Shown here in pieces: positions 3,526 through 58,122 of a stretch of DNA of 64,000 nt (positions are counted from its first letter, which is position 1; the number at the start of each line of letters is the position of its first letter). A model generated the notes under the pieces. It was not told where the DNA came from and searched no databases. It worked only from the letters and a program-made list of their open reading frames with translations. The DNA lies in NCBI GenBank assembly GCA_028287785.1, contig JAQBOZ010000028.1:62001-126000 (forward strand). The letters are read 5' to 3'. The translations under genes and the position numbers were made by a program. Source of the stretch: Chlorobiota bacterium. GTDB lineage: Bacteria > Bacteroidota > Ignavibacteria > OLB7.

Positions 3526-4101
3526 CTATCCGAAGGCCACGCGGATGGTCCGGAGCGCCATGCGGAGCCGGGTCTTGGCGGTGCCGATCGGGATGCCGAG
3601 CCTTGTGGATGCCTCCACCTGCGTATACCCCTGAAAATAGACCAGCTCGATGATCTCCTTCAACCTCGGGTTCAGCGCGCCCACAAGTTCGCGGACCAGG
3701 ACCTTATCAGAATTGAAGGTGGTATTGCATTTCTGATCCACAATATGGAGCACGCTTCCGATCTCCTGATTCATCTGCCCCTCGCGGAAGCCCTTCGATT
3801 TCACCTTGTCGATCGCCAGATTCCGGGCGATGTTGATCATCCAGGTATAGAGTTTTCCACGTGATGGATCGAACTGCCCGGCATGAATCCATATCTTCAC
3901 AAACGCCTCCTGCAGAACATCCTCCGCGCACTCCCTGGTCCTCACAATCCGGATCACCGCGATATACAGCGCCGACGAATACCGATCGTAAAGGATGCCG
4001 AGCGCTTTTTTCTGGCGATTCCGTATCATTTCAATCAATTCCTCCTCGCCAAAAGACTGCTCGTCGTCCCAGACCATGGCCGGGCTCGGCAACACACTCA
4101 T
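3526..4101 (-). CDS. ECF-type RNA polymerase sigma factor
   Basis: Sigma-70 family group 4 factor of 191 residues from this start. Region 2 is seen in LYDRYSSALYIAVIRI and ECAEDVLQEAFVKIW, with the promoter-melting stretch RGKLYTWMINIARNLAID. Region 4 is a helix-turn-helix: LKEIIELVYFQGYTQVEAS followed by LGIPIGTAKTRLRMALRTIR. I chose the ATG at 4101 (MSVLPSPAMVW); an open frame continues upstream to 4266 but lacks sigma homology. The QGYTQVEAS/IPIGTAKTR pattern resembles SigK/RskA-linked ECFs, yet no anti-sigma gene follows: the next gene downstream is the 63-residue membrane ORF, so regulation is unclear. Confidence 0.88.
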   Translation of the reverse strand: MSVLPSPAMVWDDEQSFGEEELIEMIRNRQKKALGILYDRYSSALYIAVIRIVRTRECAEDVLQEAFVKIWIHAGQFDPSRGKLYTWMINIARNLAIDKVKSKGFREGQMNQEIGSVLHIVDQKCNTTFNSDKVLVRELVGALNPRLKEIIELVYFQGYTQVEASTRLGIPIGTAKTRLRMALRTIRVAFG

Positions 4102-4391
4102 CAGGCAGTCGGTATCGCTCGAGATAGTAAATGCGTTGTTGTTCCGGCGGGAGCCGGCTATGGATTCAGTAGGATTCACCACACGTCCATCCCTTTTCTT
4201 GCGTCGTTCGGCGTGATTGCGGGGAGCCAACTCCGTACCCGAAACTCGATCTGCTGTATGCTGCAATCATCCATTATTCGGGTTCAGGGGAATCTTCGAA
4301 CCAATTTCGTACCAATTACGGGCGCGGTGGTGGTGTGATGCTGAGCATGGTGATGGCACAGGGACCGGGCACGGCACGGCTCGCCGCCGGT

Positions 4392-8590: not shown

Positions 8591-10210
8591 TCACCAGAGC
8601 TTCATTTCCAGGCCGATGGTTGCTCCCCACCGCCCGGAGATGGCCGGATTGCCGTTTGAGGTGTAGATCAGGCCCGAGGTCTCGATCCCGCCGGTCATGG
8701 AGAAATCGTTGTTCCCGCCGCTGAAGTCATGGCGACCCCCGACACGGAAACGTCCAAGCGGACCCGCGCTCGTGGCGCCGATGGTCCACTGGGCGAACGG
8801 CTCCACCCCGATGGCGGTGATCGTGCCGAAATTGTATCGCGCGGCCAGCCCGCCCCATGCGTAGCTGGGACGCTGCTCCACCTTCGCGGTATCGCCGTTG
8901 CTGAAGTGGAGAACCTGATCGTATGGCTCCAGCCCTCCCTCCGCGCCGACCGCGAAATGGGTCCCGAGCTGCCAGTAGGCGCCGACCGCGAAATACTCCA
9001 GGGCTCGCGCCAGTCCCGAACCGTTGTTCAACGCATTTGTCTTGTTGAGCGAACTACCGGCCATCCCGCGCAGTTCGCCGATCACCCTGGCCGGATCGCC
9101 ATCACCGGCATCGAGCGGCGAAAGAGAAGAGGCGGGGAGCTGCTCCGGGGCCCGGCTGAACGCCGCCGCAGAGGTGTCGGCTATCGTCATCGGCACGCCG
9201 CGTGGCGTGACGGGCGTTATCAGCGCCATCTTCGGCGCCGATGCGCTCCCCTCCTGCGGCACGGCGGCGGAAGCGGTCTGACTCTTATCCGCGCCGCCAC
9301 TGTTGCTGGTGGACGAAGCGGCGGCGCTGCTGGAAGTCCCGCCGTTATCACCGCCGTTCCGAGTCGTGTTCGCCATCCGCGATCCGCCGTTGCCGTTCGC
9401 GCCGGAGGCGCCGTTTGAACCGGAGCGGCCAATCATGCTGGTCGTCCTGGACTGGAAGCGGCCCGCATTCAGCCCGGCATCATTCCGCGCGATCGTGCTC
9501 CGCGAAACAGTAGCGTGGCTGGCCGGGTTCCGCGCGATCGGCGTCCCCGAAGCGTTTGCACTCACAGAAGCATTTCCCGTGGCCAAAGCATTTCCAGCCC
9601 CCGAAGCATTTGCCGTAGCCGATCCAGCCGAGCCGCCCTGAGCCATCAACGGCGTCCCCGCGACAGAACCGCTGGTTCCATTCGCGGCCGGATTTCCGTT
9701 CGACGGCATCGTTCCGTTCACCGTCGGGTTTCCGTTCGGCGACATCGCCCCATGCGGCGCGGTGCCGGCGATCGTTCCATTTCCGTTTGCCGGCCCGTTG
9801 CTCCCCTGAGTGTTTCCCGCGATCACGGTCGCCCTGGAAGTGCCGTTCGCCATATAGACCGTGCCGCCGGCGAGCAGCGCGCCGAGAATGAACGACCCCA
9901 CCATCCCCCAGATCCGCCACCCGGAAAGCCCCAGCCTTGCCATCAGCCCCGCCCCGGCGGCACCGGTTGCCACGGCGGAGGCGATCGGCGGGATGCCGAG
10001 CCCCGAGAGGAGCGCATGCTCGACGTAGGCCGGAGGAGCGTACGCCTCCCGGTCCGCGTGCACGGCCTGGCCGATGCTGATGAACTGCCTCAGCGTCGAT
10101 CGGAGATCGGGCTGGCGCGCCATCGATTCGAACAGGTGCTGCTCGGCATCGTGGCCCAGCGTACCGTCGATATATTCCAGGATTGCTTCACTCTGTGTCA
10201 TGTCGCTCAC
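8591..10210 (-). CDS. Anti-sigma factor fused to an outer-membrane-type beta domain
   Basis: Protein of 539 residues with an unusual layout. Residues 1-95 are a cytoplasmic anti-sigma-like helical domain (EAILEYIDGTLGHDAEQHLF, the 'Y-x-D-G-x-L' start common in RskA/ZAS-type anti-sigmas, no zinc cysteines). Residues 98-120 are one membrane helix (WRIWGMVGSFILGALLAGG). Residues 125-380 are low-complexity Asn/Gly/Ala/Ser/Thr. Residues about 400-539 show alternating-pattern strands with aromatic girdles (AVGAYWQLG, SYAWGGLAARYNFG, VEPFAQWTIG) and end in MKLW, the terminal aromatic typical of outer-membrane barrels. The cognate ECF sigma gene is 39 nt upstream. This fits the dual-membrane-spanning anti-sigma type described in Bacteroides; that assignment is inference. 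Confidence 0.8.
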   Translation of the reverse strand: MSDMTQSEAILEYIDGTLGHDAEQHLFESMARQPDLRSTLRQFISIGQAVHADREAYAPPAYVEHALLSGLGIPPIASAVATGAAGAGLMARLGLSGWRIWGMVGSFILGALLAGGTVYMANGTSRATVIAGNTQGSNGPANGNGTIAGTAPHGAMSPNGNPTVNGTMPSNGNPAANGTSGSVAGTPLMAQGGSAGSATANASGAGNALATGNASVSANASGTPIARNPASHATVSRSTIARNDAGLNAGRFQSRTTSMIGRSGSNGASGANGNGGSRMANTTRNGGDNGGTSSSAAASSTSNSGGADKSQTASAAVPQEGSASAPKMALITPVTPRGVPMTIADTSAAAFSRAPEQLPASSLSPLDAGDGDPARVIGELRGMAGSSLNKTNALNNGSGLARALEYFAVGAYWQLGTHFAVGAEGGLEPYDQVLHFSNGDTAKVEQRPSYAWGGLAARYNFGTITAIGVEPFAQWTIGATSAGPLGRFRVGGRHDFSGGNNDFSMTGGIETSGLIYTSNGNPAISGRWGATIGLEMKLW

Positions 10211-10249
10211 ACCTCAAAAGAAGGTTCGGTCCAGAAAACCTCCATGATC

Positions 10250-10798
10250 TCATGCCTCTTCCAGATATGGGGAGAGGATCTTACGCAGCTTCTCCTTGGC
10301 CCTGAAGATATGCACCTTCACCGCGGCAAGGCTCTGCCCGGTGATGTCCGATATCTCCTGATAGCTCAGGCCATCATATTCCCGCAGGATAAACGCTTCC
10401 TTGTGATGTTGCGGAAGCAGCTCCAGCGACCGTTTCACCAGCTCCGCCAGCTCCAGATTCTCGTGGCTCGGCTGGAAGACGATCTCGTGATAATCCTCCA
10501 CGGCGGTCACCGGCTTGCTGTTGCGGATCGCGTTCAGACAGATGTTCCGGGCGGTCGTGAAGATGTACGCGGAAACGTTGCTCATCAGGCGTTCGTGATC
10601 GCGGCAGCGGTTGTAGATCCGGGTAAATGTCTCCTGGAACACATCGTTGGCGCGATCGCGATCCCCGAGCATCCGAAGTGCATACGCGTAGATCCGTCCA
10701 CGATAACGCGTATACAACTCGGCGAACGCCAGCTTGTCCCCCCCACTCATGAGGGTAAAAAGTTCTTCGTCGGTATGTCTGACGTACTGGCTGGCCAT
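10250..10798 (-). CDS. ECF-type RNA polymerase sigma factor with linked anti-sigma
   Basis: ECF sigma factor of 182 residues from the ATG at 10798 (MASQYVRHTDEELFTLM); an in-frame ATG at 10837 is also possible. Region 2: AELYTRYRGRIYAYALRML and RANDVFQETFTRIY, then YIFTTARNICLNAIR. Region 4: LPQHHKEAFILREYDGLSYQE, then ITGQSLAAVKVHIFRAKEKLRK. It is the first gene of a four-gene unit with the anti-sigma/barrel fusion and two lipoproteins, so its activity is probably held by the fusion protein and released by an envelope signal. A GTAACTT stretch about 10845-10855 on the minus strand could be part of its own -35 element, but I could not define a -10. Confidence 0.9.
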   Translation of the reverse strand: MASQYVRHTDEELFTLMSGGDKLAFAELYTRYRGRIYAYALRMLGDRDRANDVFQETFTRIYNRCRDHERLMSNVSAYIFTTARNICLNAIRNSKPVTAVEDYHEIVFQPSHENLELAELVKRSLELLPQHHKEAFILREYDGLSYQEISDITGQSLAAVKVHIFRAKEKLRKILSPYLEEA

Positions 10799-11077
10799 GA
10801 TAACGGATATGTCGGAGTCGGGAGTGGAACACTCCATTCACCGGGAAGTTACAGGCGCAAAGGGGATGAGAAGCTGAGGCTAGCGTTGCGTCGAGTTGGA
10901 CCTCGTGCGGGCAAATCTACGGGAAGAAATCCTTTTCCGGCACTATTTTTCCGGTTGTTGAAGGATGAGCGCGCCAACGGCCCCGGTCCGTCATCCATCG
11001 CTCGATGTATCGGATGGCATCCTCCGGCCCGATATCCCGGCCGGCAATCAATCGTTCCCGCAATTTCAAGGATCTCC

Positions 11078-11896
11078 ATGAGCAATCGCATCGCGCCCGC
11101 AAAATCCCCCCTCAAGCTCGCATCCATCGATCCCCGCGATACCAGCGGGTTGAACAAGGACGATGATAAACTGGCGGAGGAGATGGCAGAGCGGCAGAAG
11201 CAGATCTACGACCTCCACTACCTGATGTATGCCGACAACCGGCGGTCGCTCCTGATCATCCTCCAGGGGATCGACGCAAGCGGCAAGGATGGCGCGGTCC
11301 GCTATCTGGCCGGCGGGTTCAACCCGCAGGGGCTGACGATCCACTCCTTCAAGCGTCCGTCCGATCTCGAGCTGGACCACGATTATCTCTGGCGCGTCCA
11401 TCAGGCATGCCCCGGCCGTGGCGAGGTGGCGATCTTCAACCGCTCGCACTACGAGGAGGTGACGGTCGCGAAAATCCATCCGGAAATTCTCGCCGCGGAA
11501 TTCCTGCCGACGGAGATCGCGCGGCAGAAGGATCTCTTTCAGCAGCGTTACCGGCAGATCCGTGATTTCGAGCGGATGCTGGCCGAGAACGGGACTGTGG
11601 TGCTGAAGCTCTTCCTCCATATCTCCAGGGATGAGCAGGTGGAACGGCTCGAGGAACGGATGAAGGACCCGAGGAAGCACTGGAAATTTTCGCGGCAGGA
11701 TCTGGTGGAACGGGAGTTCTGGGATGATTACATGCGGGCGTTCGAGGAGATGATCGATGCAACCGGCACGGAGCATGCGCCGTGGTACATCATCCCGGCG
11801 GACCGGAAGTGGTACCGGAATCTGCTGATCGGGAGGATCGTGGCCGGGACGATGAAGGAGTTGAAGATGGAGTACCCGGCGCTGCCGAAGCAGTGA
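11078..11896 (+). CDS. ppk2: Polyphosphate kinase 2 family protein
   Basis: Soluble 272-residue enzyme transferring phosphate between polyphosphate and nucleotides (usually ADP, GDP or AMP). The ATG at 11078 follows AAGGA; the frame stays open upstream but that part is not PPK2-like. Walker A is GIDASGKDGAVR (64-75), the lid module includes FKRPSDLELDHDYLWRVHQ, and the second motif is IFNRSHYEEV (119-128). The C-terminal WKFSRQDLVEREFWDDYMRAFEEM with APWYIIPADRKWYRN matches the class I/III PPK2 pattern. Transcribed divergently from the ECF operon; no partner gene follows. Confidence 0.93.
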   Translation: MSNRIAPAKSPLKLASIDPRDTSGLNKDDDKLAEEMAERQKQIYDLHYLMYADNRRSLLIILQGIDASGKDGAVRYLAGGFNPQGLTIHSFKRPSDLELDHDYLWRVHQACPGRGEVAIFNRSHYEEVTVAKIHPEILAAEFLPTEIARQKDLFQQRYRQIRDFERMLAENGTVVLKLFLHISRDEQVERLEERMKDPRKHWKFSRQDLVEREFWDDYMRAFEEMIDATGTEHAPWYIIPADRKWYRNLLIGRIVAGTMKELKMEYPALPKQ

Positions 11897-11987: not shown

Positions 11988-12782
11988 TCAATCGCCGGCA
12001 CGTGATTCCCCCGCCGCGTCGCCGGCCGTCGCTGGAACGGCGTCGACGCTCTGCGTCTCATCAAGCTCTATCCTGCCGTCCACAAGGTTGATCCGCCGCC
12101 GCGCCCGCGCCGCCAGCAGCGAATCGTGCGTGACGTAGATGATGGTCTGCCCTTCCCGGTTCAGCTCGTGCATCAGATCATATACCTGCTCCGTCGACTT
12201 CGTGTCGAGCGATCCGGTCGGCTCGTCCCCCAGCAGCAGGAGCGGTTTGTTGGCAAGGGCGCGGGCAACGGCAACGCGCTGCTGCTGGCCGCCGGAGAGC
12301 TGATTGGGACGGCTGCCGAGCTTCTCCTTCATCCCTACCTTCTCCAGAAGATACTCACCCCGTTCGCGCGCCTCCTTCCGCGCGGTCCCGGCCACGAGCA
12401 TCGGCATCGTCACATTTTCCAGGGCGCTGAACTCCGGCAGGAGAAAATGGAACTGGTAGATGAACCCCACCTTCCGGTTCCGCAGCTTCACCAGCCGATC
12501 CTCCTTCATCGCGGAGATCGTATCCCCGTCGAACACGATCGTTCCCGATGTGGGCAGATCGAGGCCCCCCATCATGTAGAGGAGCGTGCTCTTGCCGGAG
12601 CCGGAGGGCCCGGTGATGGTGACGAACTCCCCCGGCCTGATCGCGACGGAGAGATCCGGGATGATCGTCTGCGTTACCTCCTTCGAGGAGCGAAGATCCT
12701 TCCGCACATGATCCAGCCGGAGGATGGCACCGTTTCCATCCACCATCCCGCCATTGCCCGATTCGTTCCTGCTCTTGCTCAT
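11988..12782 (-). CDS. ABC transporter ATP-binding protein (LolD/MacB-type)
   Basis: ATPase subunit of 264 residues of an FtsX-type exporter. Walker A is GPSGSGKST, the signature is [15 protein letters not shown], Walker B is [14 protein letters not shown], and the switch is [15 protein letters not shown]. The insertion [17 protein letters not shown] is typical of the LolD/MacB group. I chose the ATG at 12782; a TTG at 12803 is in frame and even closer to the TolC stop. Last gene of the five-gene exporter operon (adaptor, two permeases, TolC, ATPase). Confidence 0.93.
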
Positions 12783-12825
12783 GCTTCCTGTTCGATATAT
12801 CAACCGACCGCCGTCATCCCGGCCA

Positions 12826-14169
12826 TCAGAAATCCCCCACCACCGCCTTCAGCTCGGCGTACGCTTCCAGAAACTGGAGCCTCAGCCGGTCCCCCGTCAT
12901 CTGCGCGTCAAGCACCCGCGACTGCGCGTTCTCCACGTCGATGATCCCGGCGCGCCCCTCCTTGTAGAGGATCATCGTGATCTCCACCGCCTTCCTCGCC
13001 TGGTCCAGGCTTGCCTCCTCGGCGACGATCTGCGCCTTCGCGCCGCGCATCTGAAGAAGAATCGATTCAAGCTGCACGGAATCGTTCTGATGAATCCGCG
13101 CGATCTCCAGATCCGCCTCCTGGACGCGCAGCTCGGCATCCTCCTGCTTCGGGTTTCCACGCCAGAGGTTGGAGATGGGATAGAGAGCGCTCAGCCCTAT
13201 CTGCGATGTCATCGCGAACTTCGCGTCGTCCGGCAGCACCGAGTTGCTCTGCCCCAGCCCCTGCACCCTGCCGACCGCGTCAAGCGTGGGATAGGCGCGA
13301 TACGTCTCCAGCCCCACGTTGGTCTGCGCGGCGGCCCGCTCCGCCTGCGCCAGCTTGAGCTGCGCGGAGTTGAGCCGCCCGATCGACGCGGTCAGATCCC
13401 CGCCGCTCGGCCCCGGCGATGTCGGTATGTCGAGCGATCCGACCACGTTCAGATTCTGATAATCCGGGATGTTCAACGTCCGGGCAAGGAGGAGGAGCGA
13501 CCCGAGATAATCGTAGTTGGCGCGCTCGGCATCGGCCCTGGCGCGGGCAACGGTAACGCCGGCGGTAAGCGTGTCCAGTGCCATCGCGCGCCCCCCCTTC
13601 CAGCGCGCCTGCGCCACGTCGAAATTCGCCATCGCGGTCTTCACCTGCTGTTCCCGCGCGCCGCGCTCGCTCTGCATATAGACGGCGCGATAGAACGCCT
13701 TCTCCACGTTCATCCGCACAAGCGCGCGCGCCACTTCGAGCTGTGCCCTGGAGACCTCGACGCCCGCCTCCGCCACCGTCTGCTGCATCCGGCGGATGGG
13801 ATCATAGAGGGGCTGCGTGATATTGAGCGTGAGCGTCGCGGACTGGCGGCTGCCGATCGGGAAGGCCTGCGTAACGCCGGTTTCGTTGAACGGCGTCCCC
13901 GGGGCCACGAAGAAGACGCCCCGTTGAATGCTGAACGCGTAGTCGGCTCCGGCGGAGACCTCCGGCAGATAGAGCCCGTGCGCCGCCCGTATCGCGATGG
14001 CCGATCGATCCAGCGCCATGCGCGCCTTCCGGATGTCCAGGCTCTGCTCATCGGCAAGCTGGAGCGCCTGCTCCAGCGTCAGCGAACGTGGCTGGGCACG
14101 GGCGCAGAGCGGAAGGGCGAGAAGGATGAGCGGAAGAAGCCGCGCCGCGCGGCATCGTGGATACGTCAT
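12826..14169 (-). CDS. TolC family outer-membrane efflux protein
   Basis: Outer-membrane channel of 447 residues. Signal peptide [17 protein letters not shown] ending CARAQ, then the TolC repeat: two long helical hairpins with [21 protein letters not shown] and the second-half [23 protein letters not shown], and strands such as [13 protein letters not shown]. Long Ala/Arg/Glu-rich coiled regions fit the periplasmic tunnel. It sits between the second FtsX permease (20 nt upstream) and the ATPase (43 nt downstream), so it is the exit duct of this exporter. Substrate unknown. Confidence 0.92.
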
Positions 14170-14188
14170 AGCTGATCCATTGCGATAA

Positions 14189-15460
14189 TTATTGCTCCCC
14201 CCGAAGAATCTCCACCGGTATCACCCCCGCGGCCGAACGCGCCGGGGCAACCGCCGCGATGGTGCTGACCACCAGAGTGCCGGCAACGGCCACCGCGAAA
14301 TACCACGGGCTCCATCCCATCTGCAACGTCGCCGTCTCGATCGGCGCAACCCCGCCGGTGCCGCCGCTCGGGATCATCCCCACCAGCCTGATCGCCACGG
14401 CCCCGACGCCGCAGCCGATGGCGCTTCCAACCAGCGCTACCACCATCCCCTGAATCAGATAGATCGACGTGAGCGATCCCGCCGAAAAGCCGAAAGATTT
14501 CATCACCGCGATATCCCGCTGCTTCTCCATCACCGAGGTTATCAGGATGTTCGCCACGCCGAAACCGCAGATCACGATCACAAACCCGACCACCACGTAG
14601 AAGAGAATCTGAAGGAACGTGAAGACCGTGATGATCCCCGCGTTCGTCTGCTGCCATGTCTCCGTCTTCCGCCCGGTCAGCCGCTCGATCATCTTCGCCA
14701 CGGCCGGCGCTTCCGTCACATCGTCAAGCTGGAAATCGATTCCGGTCGCGTCGCCGGGAAGCGCGCGGTCCAGCGCCTGCGCCAGCCGCAGGTTGACGAT
14801 CCCGGAGCGGTCCGCCGCCTCCACGCCGAGCCGGTAGACGCCGACGATCTGCACGTTGAAGACCTGCCCGCTCAGCGACACCAGCCGGATCCTGTCGCCG
14901 TAATCGACGCCGAGATCGGCGGCGGCCCTGGCGCCGATCAGCATGCCACCGCGCGATGCTTCGAGATGATCGATCGAGCCGCTTTTCAGGTACTTCGCAA
15001 GATCGTTGATCTTCGCCGCGCGTCGCGGGAAGACGCCGTTGACCTGAAGCGTGATATCGTTGGTGCCGTAGGCGGCCAGCGCCTGCGTCGAGAGAAACGG
15101 GGATGCCGCCGTCAGCCGTTCCCCCAGGGCACGCTCGATAACGCGGAGCACCGGCATCACGTTCCGCACGCGCGTCCGCTCCTCCTGCTCCATGTTCTTA
15201 TCGAGCTGCACGGCCGCCGGCGCGTTGTTCTCCCCCTCGACCAGCACATCCCCCTCGGCCCCGGCCGCCTTCCTGGCGGTCATCGTCACATGCGGGGCAA
15301 CGTCGAGGATCTTCTCCGTGAAGGAATCGAGCAGGCCGCCGAACAGGGAGATCGTCACCAGCAGCACGGTTACGCCGATCACCACGCCGGCGATAATCGC
15401 CAGCGCCTGCCGCCTGCGCGCCATCAACTGCCTGATCGCGACCAGCCAGATGAGCCTCAT
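14189..15460 (-). CDS. FtsX/MacB-type ABC transporter permease
   Basis: Inner-membrane permease of 423 residues. N-terminal helix RLIWLVAIRQLMARRRQALAI, a large periplasmic domain (VAPHVTMTARKA to ERLTGRKTETWQQ), then three C-terminal helices with the FtsX hallmark ITSVMEKQRDIAVMKSFGFS and PVEILRGE. An upstream ATG at 15493 is possible; I chose 15460 because it starts directly at the helix. Paralog of the next gene upstream; such pairs resemble the LolC/LolE or MacB-like heteromers. Confidence 0.92.
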   Translation of the reverse strand: MRLIWLVAIRQLMARRRQALAIIAGVVIGVTVLLVTISLFGGLLDSFTEKILDVAPHVTMTARKAAGAEGDVLVEGENNAPAAVQLDKNMEQEERTRVRNVMPVLRVIERALGERLTAASPFLSTQALAAYGTNDITLQVNGVFPRRAAKINDLAKYLKSGSIDHLEASRGGMLIGARAAADLGVDYGDRIRLVSLSGQVFNVQIVGVYRLGVEAADRSGIVNLRLAQALDRALPGDATGIDFQLDDVTEAPAVAKMIERLTGRKTETWQQTNAGIITVFTFLQILFYVVVGFVIVICGFGVANILITSVMEKQRDIAVMKSFGFSAGSLTSIYLIQGMVVALVGSAIGCGVGAVAIRLVGMIPSGGTGGVAPIETATLQMGWSPWYFAVAVAGTLVVSTIAAVAPARSAAGVIPVEILRGEQ

Positions 15461-15526
15461 GGGGAGAAGATTCGGAAATCGGACATGGAACAACGTAAAC
15501 TGATGGAACCGGGAGCGGCGCGCAAT

Positions 15527-16795
15527 CTACACCTCGCCGCGAATGACGCGCACCGGCGCGAACTTCGCCGCCCGCCGCGCCGGGAGAATGCTGGCGATCA
15601 TCGCCATCAGCACCGAGAACCCGAACGTGAACAGATAGATGCCGAAATCGAGCGACACCGGAAACCGGTCGAACCGGACATAGGAGGAGCTGGTCTTCGG
15701 AACCAGGTTGAGCGATCCGAAGAGCCGAGCAAGCCCGTAGCCGAGCAGGGCGGCCAGCAGCCCGCCGATACACCCGATGATCATCCCCTCCAGCAGAAAG
15801 ATCGCCACCACGCCCCCGCGCGAGACGCCGAACGATTTCATCACCGCGATATCCTGTTTCTTCTGCAGGACGATCGCCACAAGCGTGTTGGAGATCCCGA
15901 ACGCCGCGGTCACGAAGACGAAGACCACCAGGATGCGGGAGGTGATCCCCTGCCGTCCCTGAAACTCCAGGATCTGCGCGTTCGTTTCCTCCCACGTCTC
16001 CGCCTTGTAGCCGGTCAGCCTCTCCACGATCTCCTTCACCCGCGCGGCGCCGGCGATATCGCGCAGCTCGATGCTCAGCCCCGTCACGGAATTGCGCGGA
16101 AGATCGCGCAGCGTCTGCCCCAGCGACAGGTTGATATAGCCCTGCCGGTCATCGGCATTCGCCACGCCGCTCTCGTAGATCGCGGCAATCTTCAGCGGCT
16201 GGATGGCGCCGGTCGGGGTCACGAAGCTGATGTCATCCCCAATCCGCACGTTCAGTTTGGCTGCAAGGCCGCTGCCGATCACCGCCCCGTTCGGCAGCTC
16301 CGAAAGCGCGCTCAGCCTCCCCTGCCGGATATCCCTCGCCAGCTTCCCGATATTCTTCTCCCGCTCCGGATCAACCCCGCGCACCGTCACCGTCTGGTAG
16401 CGCGTGCCGTTGCGGAACACCCCCTGGAGCAGCACGTAGGGCGCCACCGCTATCACATCGAATGTCGATTTCTCCACCTTCGCCTGCACCTCCGTGTACG
16501 GCTTCACCTCCTTCCGCGTGCTGGGGGGAACGTTCCGCCGGAGCTCGACAAACCCCTGTTCGTGATCGAGAAGGTTCTGCGACACGACCGGCTTCAGGCG
16601 ATCGGATGTGAGGATGATATGCGGGGAGATATCGATAATCTTGTCGCGGAGAAACCCCGACTGCCCCTCGGTGATCGCCACCATCAGCGCGAATATCCCG
16701 CCGCCGATCACGATGCCGAGCGTCGCGAGGATCGTCTGGCGCCGCCGCGAGCGGAGATGCCGGAGCGCAATCTGTAGGGCAAGGCGGAATGTCAT
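15527..16795 (-). CDS. FtsX/MacB-type ABC transporter permease
   Basis: Inner-membrane permease of 422 residues, paralog of the gene just downstream. N-terminal helix LALQIALRHLRSRRRQTILA then GIVIGGGIFALMVAI; periplasmic core with IDISPHIILTSDRL and RLTGYKAETWEE; C-terminal helices with IVLQKKQDIAVMKSFGVS and APVRVIRGEV. It follows the adaptor gene by about 90 nt. With the adaptor, TolC and ATPase it forms a complete tripartite MacAB-TolC-like pump for a peptide, lipid or drug; which cannot be told from sequence. Confidence 0.92.
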   Translation of the reverse strand: MTFRLALQIALRHLRSRRRQTILATLGIVIGGGIFALMVAITEGQSGFLRDKIIDISPHIILTSDRLKPVVSQNLLDHEQGFVELRRNVPPSTRKEVKPYTEVQAKVEKSTFDVIAVAPYVLLQGVFRNGTRYQTVTVRGVDPEREKNIGKLARDIRQGRLSALSELPNGAVIGSGLAAKLNVRIGDDISFVTPTGAIQPLKIAAIYESGVANADDRQGYINLSLGQTLRDLPRNSVTGLSIELRDIAGAARVKEIVERLTGYKAETWEETNAQILEFQGRQGITSRILVVFVFVTAAFGISNTLVAIVLQKKQDIAVMKSFGVSRGGVVAIFLLEGMIIGCIGGLLAALLGYGLARLFGSLNLVPKTSSSYVRFDRFPVSLDFGIYLFTFGFSVLMAMIASILPARRAAKFAPVRVIRGEV

Positions 16796-56919: not shown

Positions 56920-58122
56920 CTACTGCACCTCGCGCGCAACCTCGGCCAGCCGCCGCTCCAGAAACCGGCGCTCCGCCTCGTTGGTCACCAGCGCCAGCGC
57001 CTCCCGGTACCCGGCGGCGGCTTCGACGAAACGGTTCAGGCGGCGCAACAGATCGGCGCGCACGGCGGGGAGGAGATGATATCCCGGCAGATCGATGGCA
57101 TCGAGCAGCACCAGCCCCTTCTCGCACCCCTCCGCCATCGCAATTGCAACAACGCGATTGAGCTCGATCACGGGTGAGGGCTGAAGCCGCGCCAGCATTC
57201 CGTACAGGGATGCGATCTGCGCCCAGTCGGTCTCCTCCACGGAGGCGGCCCGCGAGTGGAGCGCGGTAATCGCGGCCTGAATGGCGTACCTCCCCGGTGT
57301 CCCCCCACGCAGCGCCCGCTCCAGCAGCCCCAATCCCTCCGCGATCTTCCCATGATCCCACCGCGAACGGTCCTGATCCTCCAGCACCACGATGGCCCCC
57401 GTGTCATCGGTCCGGGTTGCGCGACGTGCATCGTTGAACAGCATCAGCGCCAGAAGCGCCCGCGCCTCCCGCTCGGCGGGGAGAAGCGCCACAAGCTCCC
57501 GACCCAGCCGGAGCGCCTCGACGCAGAGATCGGCGCGGACAAGGTCGCTGCCGAAGCTGGCGGCATAGCCCTCGTTGAAGACCAGATAGACCACCGCGAG
57601 CGCGGTATCGAGCCGTCCGGCAAGCTCCTCATCGGCCGGCACTTCGTAGGGGATGCGCGCCAGTCTGATCTTGGCTTTGGCGCGGACAAGCCGCTGCGCC
57701 AGCGTGGGCACCGGCACAAGAAACGCGCGCGCGATCTCCTCGGTGCTCAGCCCGCAGATAGTACGGAGCGTCAGTGCAACCTGTGCCTCGGGCGCGAGCG
57801 CCGGGTGGCAGCAGGTGAAGATCAGACGGAGCGAGTCGAGCGGGACGGGCGTATCTTCCTCGGGCATGATCGCGGCAGCCATATCCTCTCGTTTTCCCTC
57901 GGCCAGCACGCGACGGCGGATCTGATCGATCGCCTTGTTCCGTGCCGTCGTCATCAGCCAGGCCACCGGGTTCAGCGGCGGCCCCTTCTCCGGCCACTGT
58001 TCCAGCGCGGCGGCAAACGCCTCCTGCAATGAATCCTCCGCAAGCGTGATATCCCGGACCACGCGAATAAGGCTGGCGAGGATGCGACCGTATTCGCGAC
58101 GGTGAAGTTCGCCAAGGTTCAT
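56920..58122 (-). CDS. ECF42-type RNA polymerase sigma factor
   Basis: Sigma factor of 400 residues with a C-terminal extension, the ECF42 form (DUF6596). Region 2: LASLIRVVRDITLAEDSLQE, AWLMTTARNKAIDQIRRR. Region 4: LTLRTICGLSTEEIARAFLV then PTLAQRLVRAKAKIRLA. The extension (from about 180) has YLVFNEGYAAS, LALMLFNDARRATRTDD and TPR-like helices (NRFVEAAAGYREALALV), which in this group replaces an anti-sigma and controls activity. Start overlaps the YCII stop upstream (ATGA). With the three promoters at 59117-60963 this is probably a self-regulating unit. Confidence 0.92.
   Translation of the reverse strand: MNLGELHRREYGRILASLIRVVRDITLAEDSLQEAFAAALEQWPEKGPPLNPVAWLMTTARNKAIDQIRRRVLAEGKREDMAAAIMPEEDTPVPLDSLRLIFTCCHPALAPEAQVALTLRTICGLSTEEIARAFLVPVPTLAQRLVRAKAKIRLARIPYEVPADEELAGRLDTALAVVYLVFNEGYAASFGSDLVRADLCVEALRLGRELVALLPAEREARALLALMLFNDARRATRTDDTGAIVVLEDQDRSRWDHGKIAEGLGLLERALRGGTPGRYAIQAAITALHSRAASVEETDWAQIASLYGMLARLQPSPVIELNRVVAIAMAEGCEKGLVLLDAIDLPGYHLLPAVRADLLRRLNRFVEAAAGYREALALVTNEAERRFLERRLAEVAREVQ

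Follow-up and report, generated by a model that had tools for sequence, protein, structure and literature searches.

A predicted envelope-spanning anti-sigma factor with lipoprotein partners in a class of Bacteroidota

INTRODUCTION

The closest described systems are the Dma1-3 proteins of Bacteroides, dual membrane-spanning anti-sigma factors that are paired with the Das sigma factors of group ECF21 and whose family has been described as occurring solely in Bacteroidota (PMC13088901). It is a trait of this family that loss of the protein raises outer-membrane vesicle production, and for Dma1 and Dma2 of B. thetaiotaomicron the deletion of the anti-sigma works via its sigma factor and strongly induces its own operon (PMC13088901). 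In the same organism loss of the genes 3′ of dma2, including BT_1557, left vesiculation unchanged, and the DUF4943 protein is given as of unknown function only (PMC13088901). Our search of a limited collection of papers found no envelope-spanning anti-sigmas outside Bacteroides.

In FecIRA-type TonB-dependent signalling the outer-membrane receptor and the anti-sigma are separate proteins. Among anti-sigmas with class I domains, we know of no outer-membrane barrel in any of MucA, RsiW, ChrR and RslA.

Here we describe an operon for a sigma factor, an anti-sigma factor and lipoproteins in the window, by which we mean the whole 64,000-nucleotide stretch of Chlorobiota bacterium DNA that was analysed. 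We put the probability that its anti-sigma spans the whole envelope, with the inferred sensing and cleavage steps included, at roughly 0.78.

RESULTS

The ECF sigma gene, the anti-sigma gene and the two downstream lipoprotein genes lie at the open reading frames to which a first-pass annotation of the letters had assigned them, separated by gaps of 39, 7 and 51 nt (sigma/anti-sigma, anti-sigma/lipoprotein 1 and lipoprotein 1/lipoprotein 2, respectively). In minus-strand order the features are:

10853-10828 (minus): ECF-type promoter TGTAACTT-N13-GTGTT, about 30 nt 5′ of the sigma start codon and the sole conserved block there
10798-10250 (minus): ECF sigma factor, 182 aa (Pfam Sigma70_r2 and Sigma70_r4_2; tree position)
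10210-8591 (minus): anti-sigma with a predicted outer-membrane-type barrel, 539 aa from GTG (homologues and alignments)
10210-10001 (minus): predicted anti-sigma domain, residues 1-70, four helices (AlphaFold2; PDB fold matches)
9916-9833 (minus): predicted inner-membrane helix, residues 99-126 (hydropathy; helix in the model)
9832-9092 (minus): putative low-complexity periplasmic tether, residues 127-373 (composition; variable length and low identity)
9091-8594 (minus): predicted 8-stranded outer-membrane-type beta-barrel, residues 374-539, with a C-terminal W (AlphaFold2, Foldseek, strand alternation)
8583-7921 (minus): lipoprotein 1, 220 aa, mature N-terminus CGDTPVDSRTASV (lipobox; position 7 nt past the anti-sigma stop; motif)
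7869-6865 (minus): lipoprotein 2, 334 aa, mature N-terminus CGETPVDSQTANV, with RDSxxx repeats (phmmer similarity to lipoprotein 1; repeat spacing)

Divergent from the operon is a PPK2-like polyphosphate kinase gene (window 11079-11896), and beyond it (11988-16795) are genes for an ABC ATPase, a TolC-like protein and two MacB/LolC-like permeases, all named by eye; the ABC genes and the kinase gene adjoin the sigma operon in the genus-level relative (L075) too. Two more sigma-70 family genes of the window (3526-4266 and 56920-58122, both minus strand) have no barrel-type anti-sigma downstream.

For the sigma factor the start at 10798 is favoured over that at 10837, because the conserved promoter overlaps the longer start. 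Alignments show that the relatives of the anti-sigma begin at the codon that aligns with ATG 10201, three codons inside GTG 10210, so the window protein is probably 536 residues long. Across four genomes of the family TGTAACTT-N13-GTGTT is the only block conserved 5′ of the sigma gene (its first base is C in two of the four), and the exact sequence has one match in the own genome and one in the genus-level relative, each 5′ of a window-type sigma gene. A promoter that is both unique and conserved at this position fits, and suggests, autoregulation of the operon, a counterpart to the strong self-induction reported for Dma2. A wider regulon drawn from the promoter pattern was dropped, as matches with one mismatch were at the level of a reversed-pattern control, and the claim is limited to the operon. 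A similar promoter, TGAAACTT-N13-GTGTT, is found elsewhere in the own genome (L201, G000:C23:57739-57764) just 5′ of another ECF sigma gene with a short anti-sigma, and the genus-level relative has a near-identical site of the TGAAACTT type (G001:C8:146537).

The proposed cytoplasmic anti-sigma domain and single inner-membrane helix are both borne out. AlphaFold2 modelled residues 1-135 as four helices plus a long helix at 99-126, within which hydropathy places one membrane helix at residues 100-122, and the top 9 of the 13 PDB fold matches of the N-terminal domain are anti-sigma domains (MucA, RsiW, ChrR and RslA). The Foldseek E-values of these matches are weak (0.13 and up), yet the matches are consistent in kind, which is unlikely to have arisen by chance. 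The predicted N-terminal domain therefore has its fold in common with class I anti-sigma domains, and the model and fold matches also give the class I arrangement of a helical domain followed by a transmembrane helix. Searched against Pfam and NCBIfam, the window anti-sigma had no significant family, anti-sigma families included.

At the other end of the chain an outer-membrane-like beta domain had been claimed, with a soluble fold named as the outcome that would speak against it; modelling favoured the claim. Modelled by AlphaFold2 with 23 class members, residues 373-539 form an eight-stranded barrel (pLDDT 88.8, pTM 0.81), whose best matches among 350,542 PDB chains in Foldseek are nearly all outer-membrane barrels (OmpA, NspA, FadL, OprF, OmpW, OprH and Ail), at moderate TM-scores of ∼0.5 (0.64 to OprF by target length). 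Hydrophobicity alternates between inward and outward positions along the strands more than in within-strand shuffles (p = 0.0008), and most family members terminate in an aromatic residue; eight antiparallel strands, alternating faces and a C-terminal aromatic are the features of the OmpA/OmpX/OmpW fold, and the predicted barrel has all of them. The window protein has no match among the Pfam barrel families and its barrel is known from a predicted structure, which leaves room for another reading: a soluble barrel or beta-sandwich in the periplasm, sensing a ligand there, in a protein anchored only in the inner membrane. We hold this to be very improbable, as the folds matched are those of outer-membrane barrels and not of lipocalin-like proteins, and as the aromatic chain end is accompanied by one strand face, the inner one in the model, that is charged and Gly-rich (E, R, Q, T and G), a pattern shared with small outer-membrane barrels.

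Between helix and barrel, residues 123-380 are rich in A/G/S/T/N, in keeping with the spacer of ∼250 Asn/Gly/Ala/Ser residues that had been described. In the family this tether is 95-248 aa long and is the least conserved part of the protein, with a mean pairwise identity of 14% as compared to 40% for the anti-sigma domain and 33% for the barrel. Its composition and its lack of conservation over 95-248 aa are those of a long disordered tether as in Dma, and at ∼0.35 nm per extended residue we infer that even the shortest could span a periplasm of ∼20-25 nm.

The first-pass annotation had likened the protein to the dual-membrane-spanning anti-sigmas known in Bacteroides, and these are the Dma proteins (PMC13088901). 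Dma and the window system agree in how the chain is laid out (anti-sigma domain, single helix, tether, C-terminal barrel) and in the upstream sigma gene, the single transmembrane helix being given here by hydropathy and the model, and the beta-barrel by the model. Both occur in Bacteroidota as GTDB defines the phylum, and the Dma2 operon has its DUF4943 lipoprotein in the same place as the window lipoprotein. Phylum, layout and lipoprotein position would fit a true Dma by descent that has diverged past sequence recognition. We recovered true Dma2 operons through DUF4943 and ∼30 Dma-like loci, some of them Dma3-like sigma fusions, and hhalign of the window protein against Dma alignments (25 and 29 sequences) detected no homology for either the anti-sigma domain (probability 11.7%) or the barrel (13.0%, out of register). 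The sigma factors likewise fall in different clades: that of the window lies within a clade of 24 sigmas, all 24 preceding barrel-type anti-sigmas, and outside the clade of sigmas that adjoin Bacteroides Dma genes, and a joint window/Dma clade is rejected (p-AU 0.026). By this clade position and p-AU value the adjacent sigma is probably not an ECF21 sigma of the Dma kind. We hold descent from Dma to be a real possibility but less likely than not, and as far as the sequences tell, the window system is a Dma-like parallel and not Dma by descent.

Four Bacteroides-family ORFs of 554-573 aa (L165, L168, L171 and L172) have a sigma fused ahead of a barrel anti-sigma and are Dma3-like, and the DUF4943 protein encoded in the Dma2 operon (L141 5139-5666 and L142 4962-5486) carries a lipoprotein signal, SCTSC or TGC. 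Loci of the NCBIfam family sigma_PG0214 were rejected as a way to Dma, as the anti-sigmas that go with such sigmas in other classes are short and ordinary.

Homologues of the window anti-sigma are present in 37 of 99 relatives and in 17 of 54 genera. In a set of 392 genomes from the phylum we scored the top few candidates of each genome. Within this scope, matches that take in both ends of the protein are, provisionally, confined to the window's own class, where they span at least ten family-level groups; other classes yielded, again among these top candidates, the N-terminal part alone, in short ORFs. The phylum is Bacteroidota in the GTDB sense and includes genomes with the green sulfur bacterial FMO protein as well as genomes with the Dma2 operon; the class to which the window belongs lies outside both Chlorobia and Bacteroidia. 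Its close named relatives have been deposited as Bacteroidetes and Chlorobiota MAGs. One contig deposited as part of an Armatimonadetes MAG (L077, JADZEY010000003.1) has a gene order nearly identical to that of a Chlorobiota MAG (L076) and is probably mislabelled.

The survey of synteny in related genomes that had been proposed found the ECF sigma directly upstream in every homologous locus checked, and a lipoprotein gene downstream in most loci. Region-2 sigma matches number 37 in the own genome, and inspection of downstream genes suggests that this genome has nine anti-sigmas with barrel-like C-termini, the window copy included; the barrel-like assignment was made by eye for L046, L051, L064, L065 and L068. 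Since sigma and anti-sigma occur together in ten or more groups at family level, with several copies per genome, this is not a chance fusion, and mis-annotation is likewise rejected on the conservation of the architecture across the class. The expectation of a case in a distant FCB lineage understated the extent of the system, which is widespread and multi-copy across the class. Over 22 loci the pairwise distances of sigma, anti-sigma domain and barrel are correlated (r = 0.85-0.88, p = 0.0001; Mantel r = 0.87 for the anti-sigma domain against the upstream sigma), correlations that may arise simply from the shared ancestry of the operon.

The lipoprotein gene lies directly 3′ of most barrel-type anti-sigma genes, and in several families the mature N-terminus of its product is C-x-S-P-L-D-x-D-x-x-R, with the variant C-x-x-x-P-V-D-x-x-T in the window's own family. 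A degenerate DNA search for the C-x-S-P-L-D-x-D-x-x-R tag gave 15 matches in 13 genomes. Four (G037, G000:C19, G042:C1 and G060) contain a stop codon or do not code for Ser-Pro-Leu; the remaining 11, by their coordinates, each lie directly behind a barrel-type anti-sigma gene. The body behind the tag varies, being a VWA domain, an ASH/HYDIN Ig-like domain, DUF6252 or, in the window, RDSxxx repeats. Since the tag is constant and the body changes, we read the tag as docking and the body as sensing, a division of roles that these sequences suggest.

In two loci of one family of the class (L027 and L028, family f2) the partner lipoprotein has a von Willebrand A domain (Pfam VWA, E ∼1e-13), suggestive of a metal-dependent adhesion-type sensor, and in L020 an ASH/HYDIN Ig-like domain lies behind the tag CTSPTDVDAAR. 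The window lipoproteins have nothing significant in Pfam or NCBIfam and are paralogous to each other by phmmer. The genus-level relative has one lipoprotein gene as opposed to two in the window, and the second gene looks like a tandem duplicate; of the two attached lipoproteins of unknown role that had been described, the lipoprotein as such is thus a conserved component and the second copy is probably local. Residues 57-170 of lipoprotein 2 hold [RKH]D[ST] units at a spacing of 6 and then mostly 8, and may form a length-variable repeat stalk, whereas lipoprotein 1 has only two such units.

DISCUSSION

We propose that at rest the N-terminal domain would sequester the sigma factor while the barrel, inserted by BAM, would report on the outer membrane, and that the tagged lipoprotein would dock on the barrel or the nearby tether, carrying a sensing domain that differs between loci. 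If barrel insertion failed, the barrel were displaced or the lipoprotein partner changed state, the tether or helix would be cut and the freed sigma would first transcribe its own operon. Genes for an M50 site-2 protease and Omp85/BamA-like proteins are present, and no site-1 protease was identified. FecIRA-type signalling relays the state of the outer membrane to an ECF sigma via an anti-sigma, as the window system would too; unlike FecIRA, the window system has one chain, a small barrel and an operon without a TonB-dependent receptor.

A barrel, a tether and an anti-sigma domain suffice for a device in which the barrel is a mere anchor or a membrane-damage fuse that reports BAM function or envelope spacing, the lipoprotein being co-regulated and not a sensor. 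Most Bacteroides Dma loci are without a downstream lipoprotein, and deletion of BT_1557 had no vesiculation phenotype (PMC13088901), both of which are in line with such a device. Few Bacteroides Dma loci have one, but most loci of the window's class are followed by a tagged lipoprotein. A binding role is suggested by the tag itself, which is specific to barrel-type anti-sigma operons in 13 genomes and is kept where other parts of the lipoprotein have been swapped. We consider the anchor or fuse a real possibility, if one somewhat short of even.

Just as tentatively, we suggest that envelope-spanning anti-sigmas arose at least twice in Bacteroidota from unrelated anti-sigma domains and barrels, and that in the window's class they may have become receptors of three parts, with a lipoprotein that bears the C-x-S-P-L-D-x-D-x-x-R tag docking at the barrel and supplying a sensing domain that can be swapped (VWA, Ig-like or repeat stalk). 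If this is true, each cell has several parallel surface-to-sigma channels, and the tag is a handle for finding the input signal.

Bacteroides Dma has so far been the model for how the cytoplasm can learn of events at the outer membrane when no series of separate proteins passes them on. A second and apparently unrelated build in another class, with as many as about nine copies per genome and a signature lipoprotein, would show the one-chain solution to be a general design. Through one such predicted envelope-spanning protein, the condition of the outer surface could be sensed by the cell directly.
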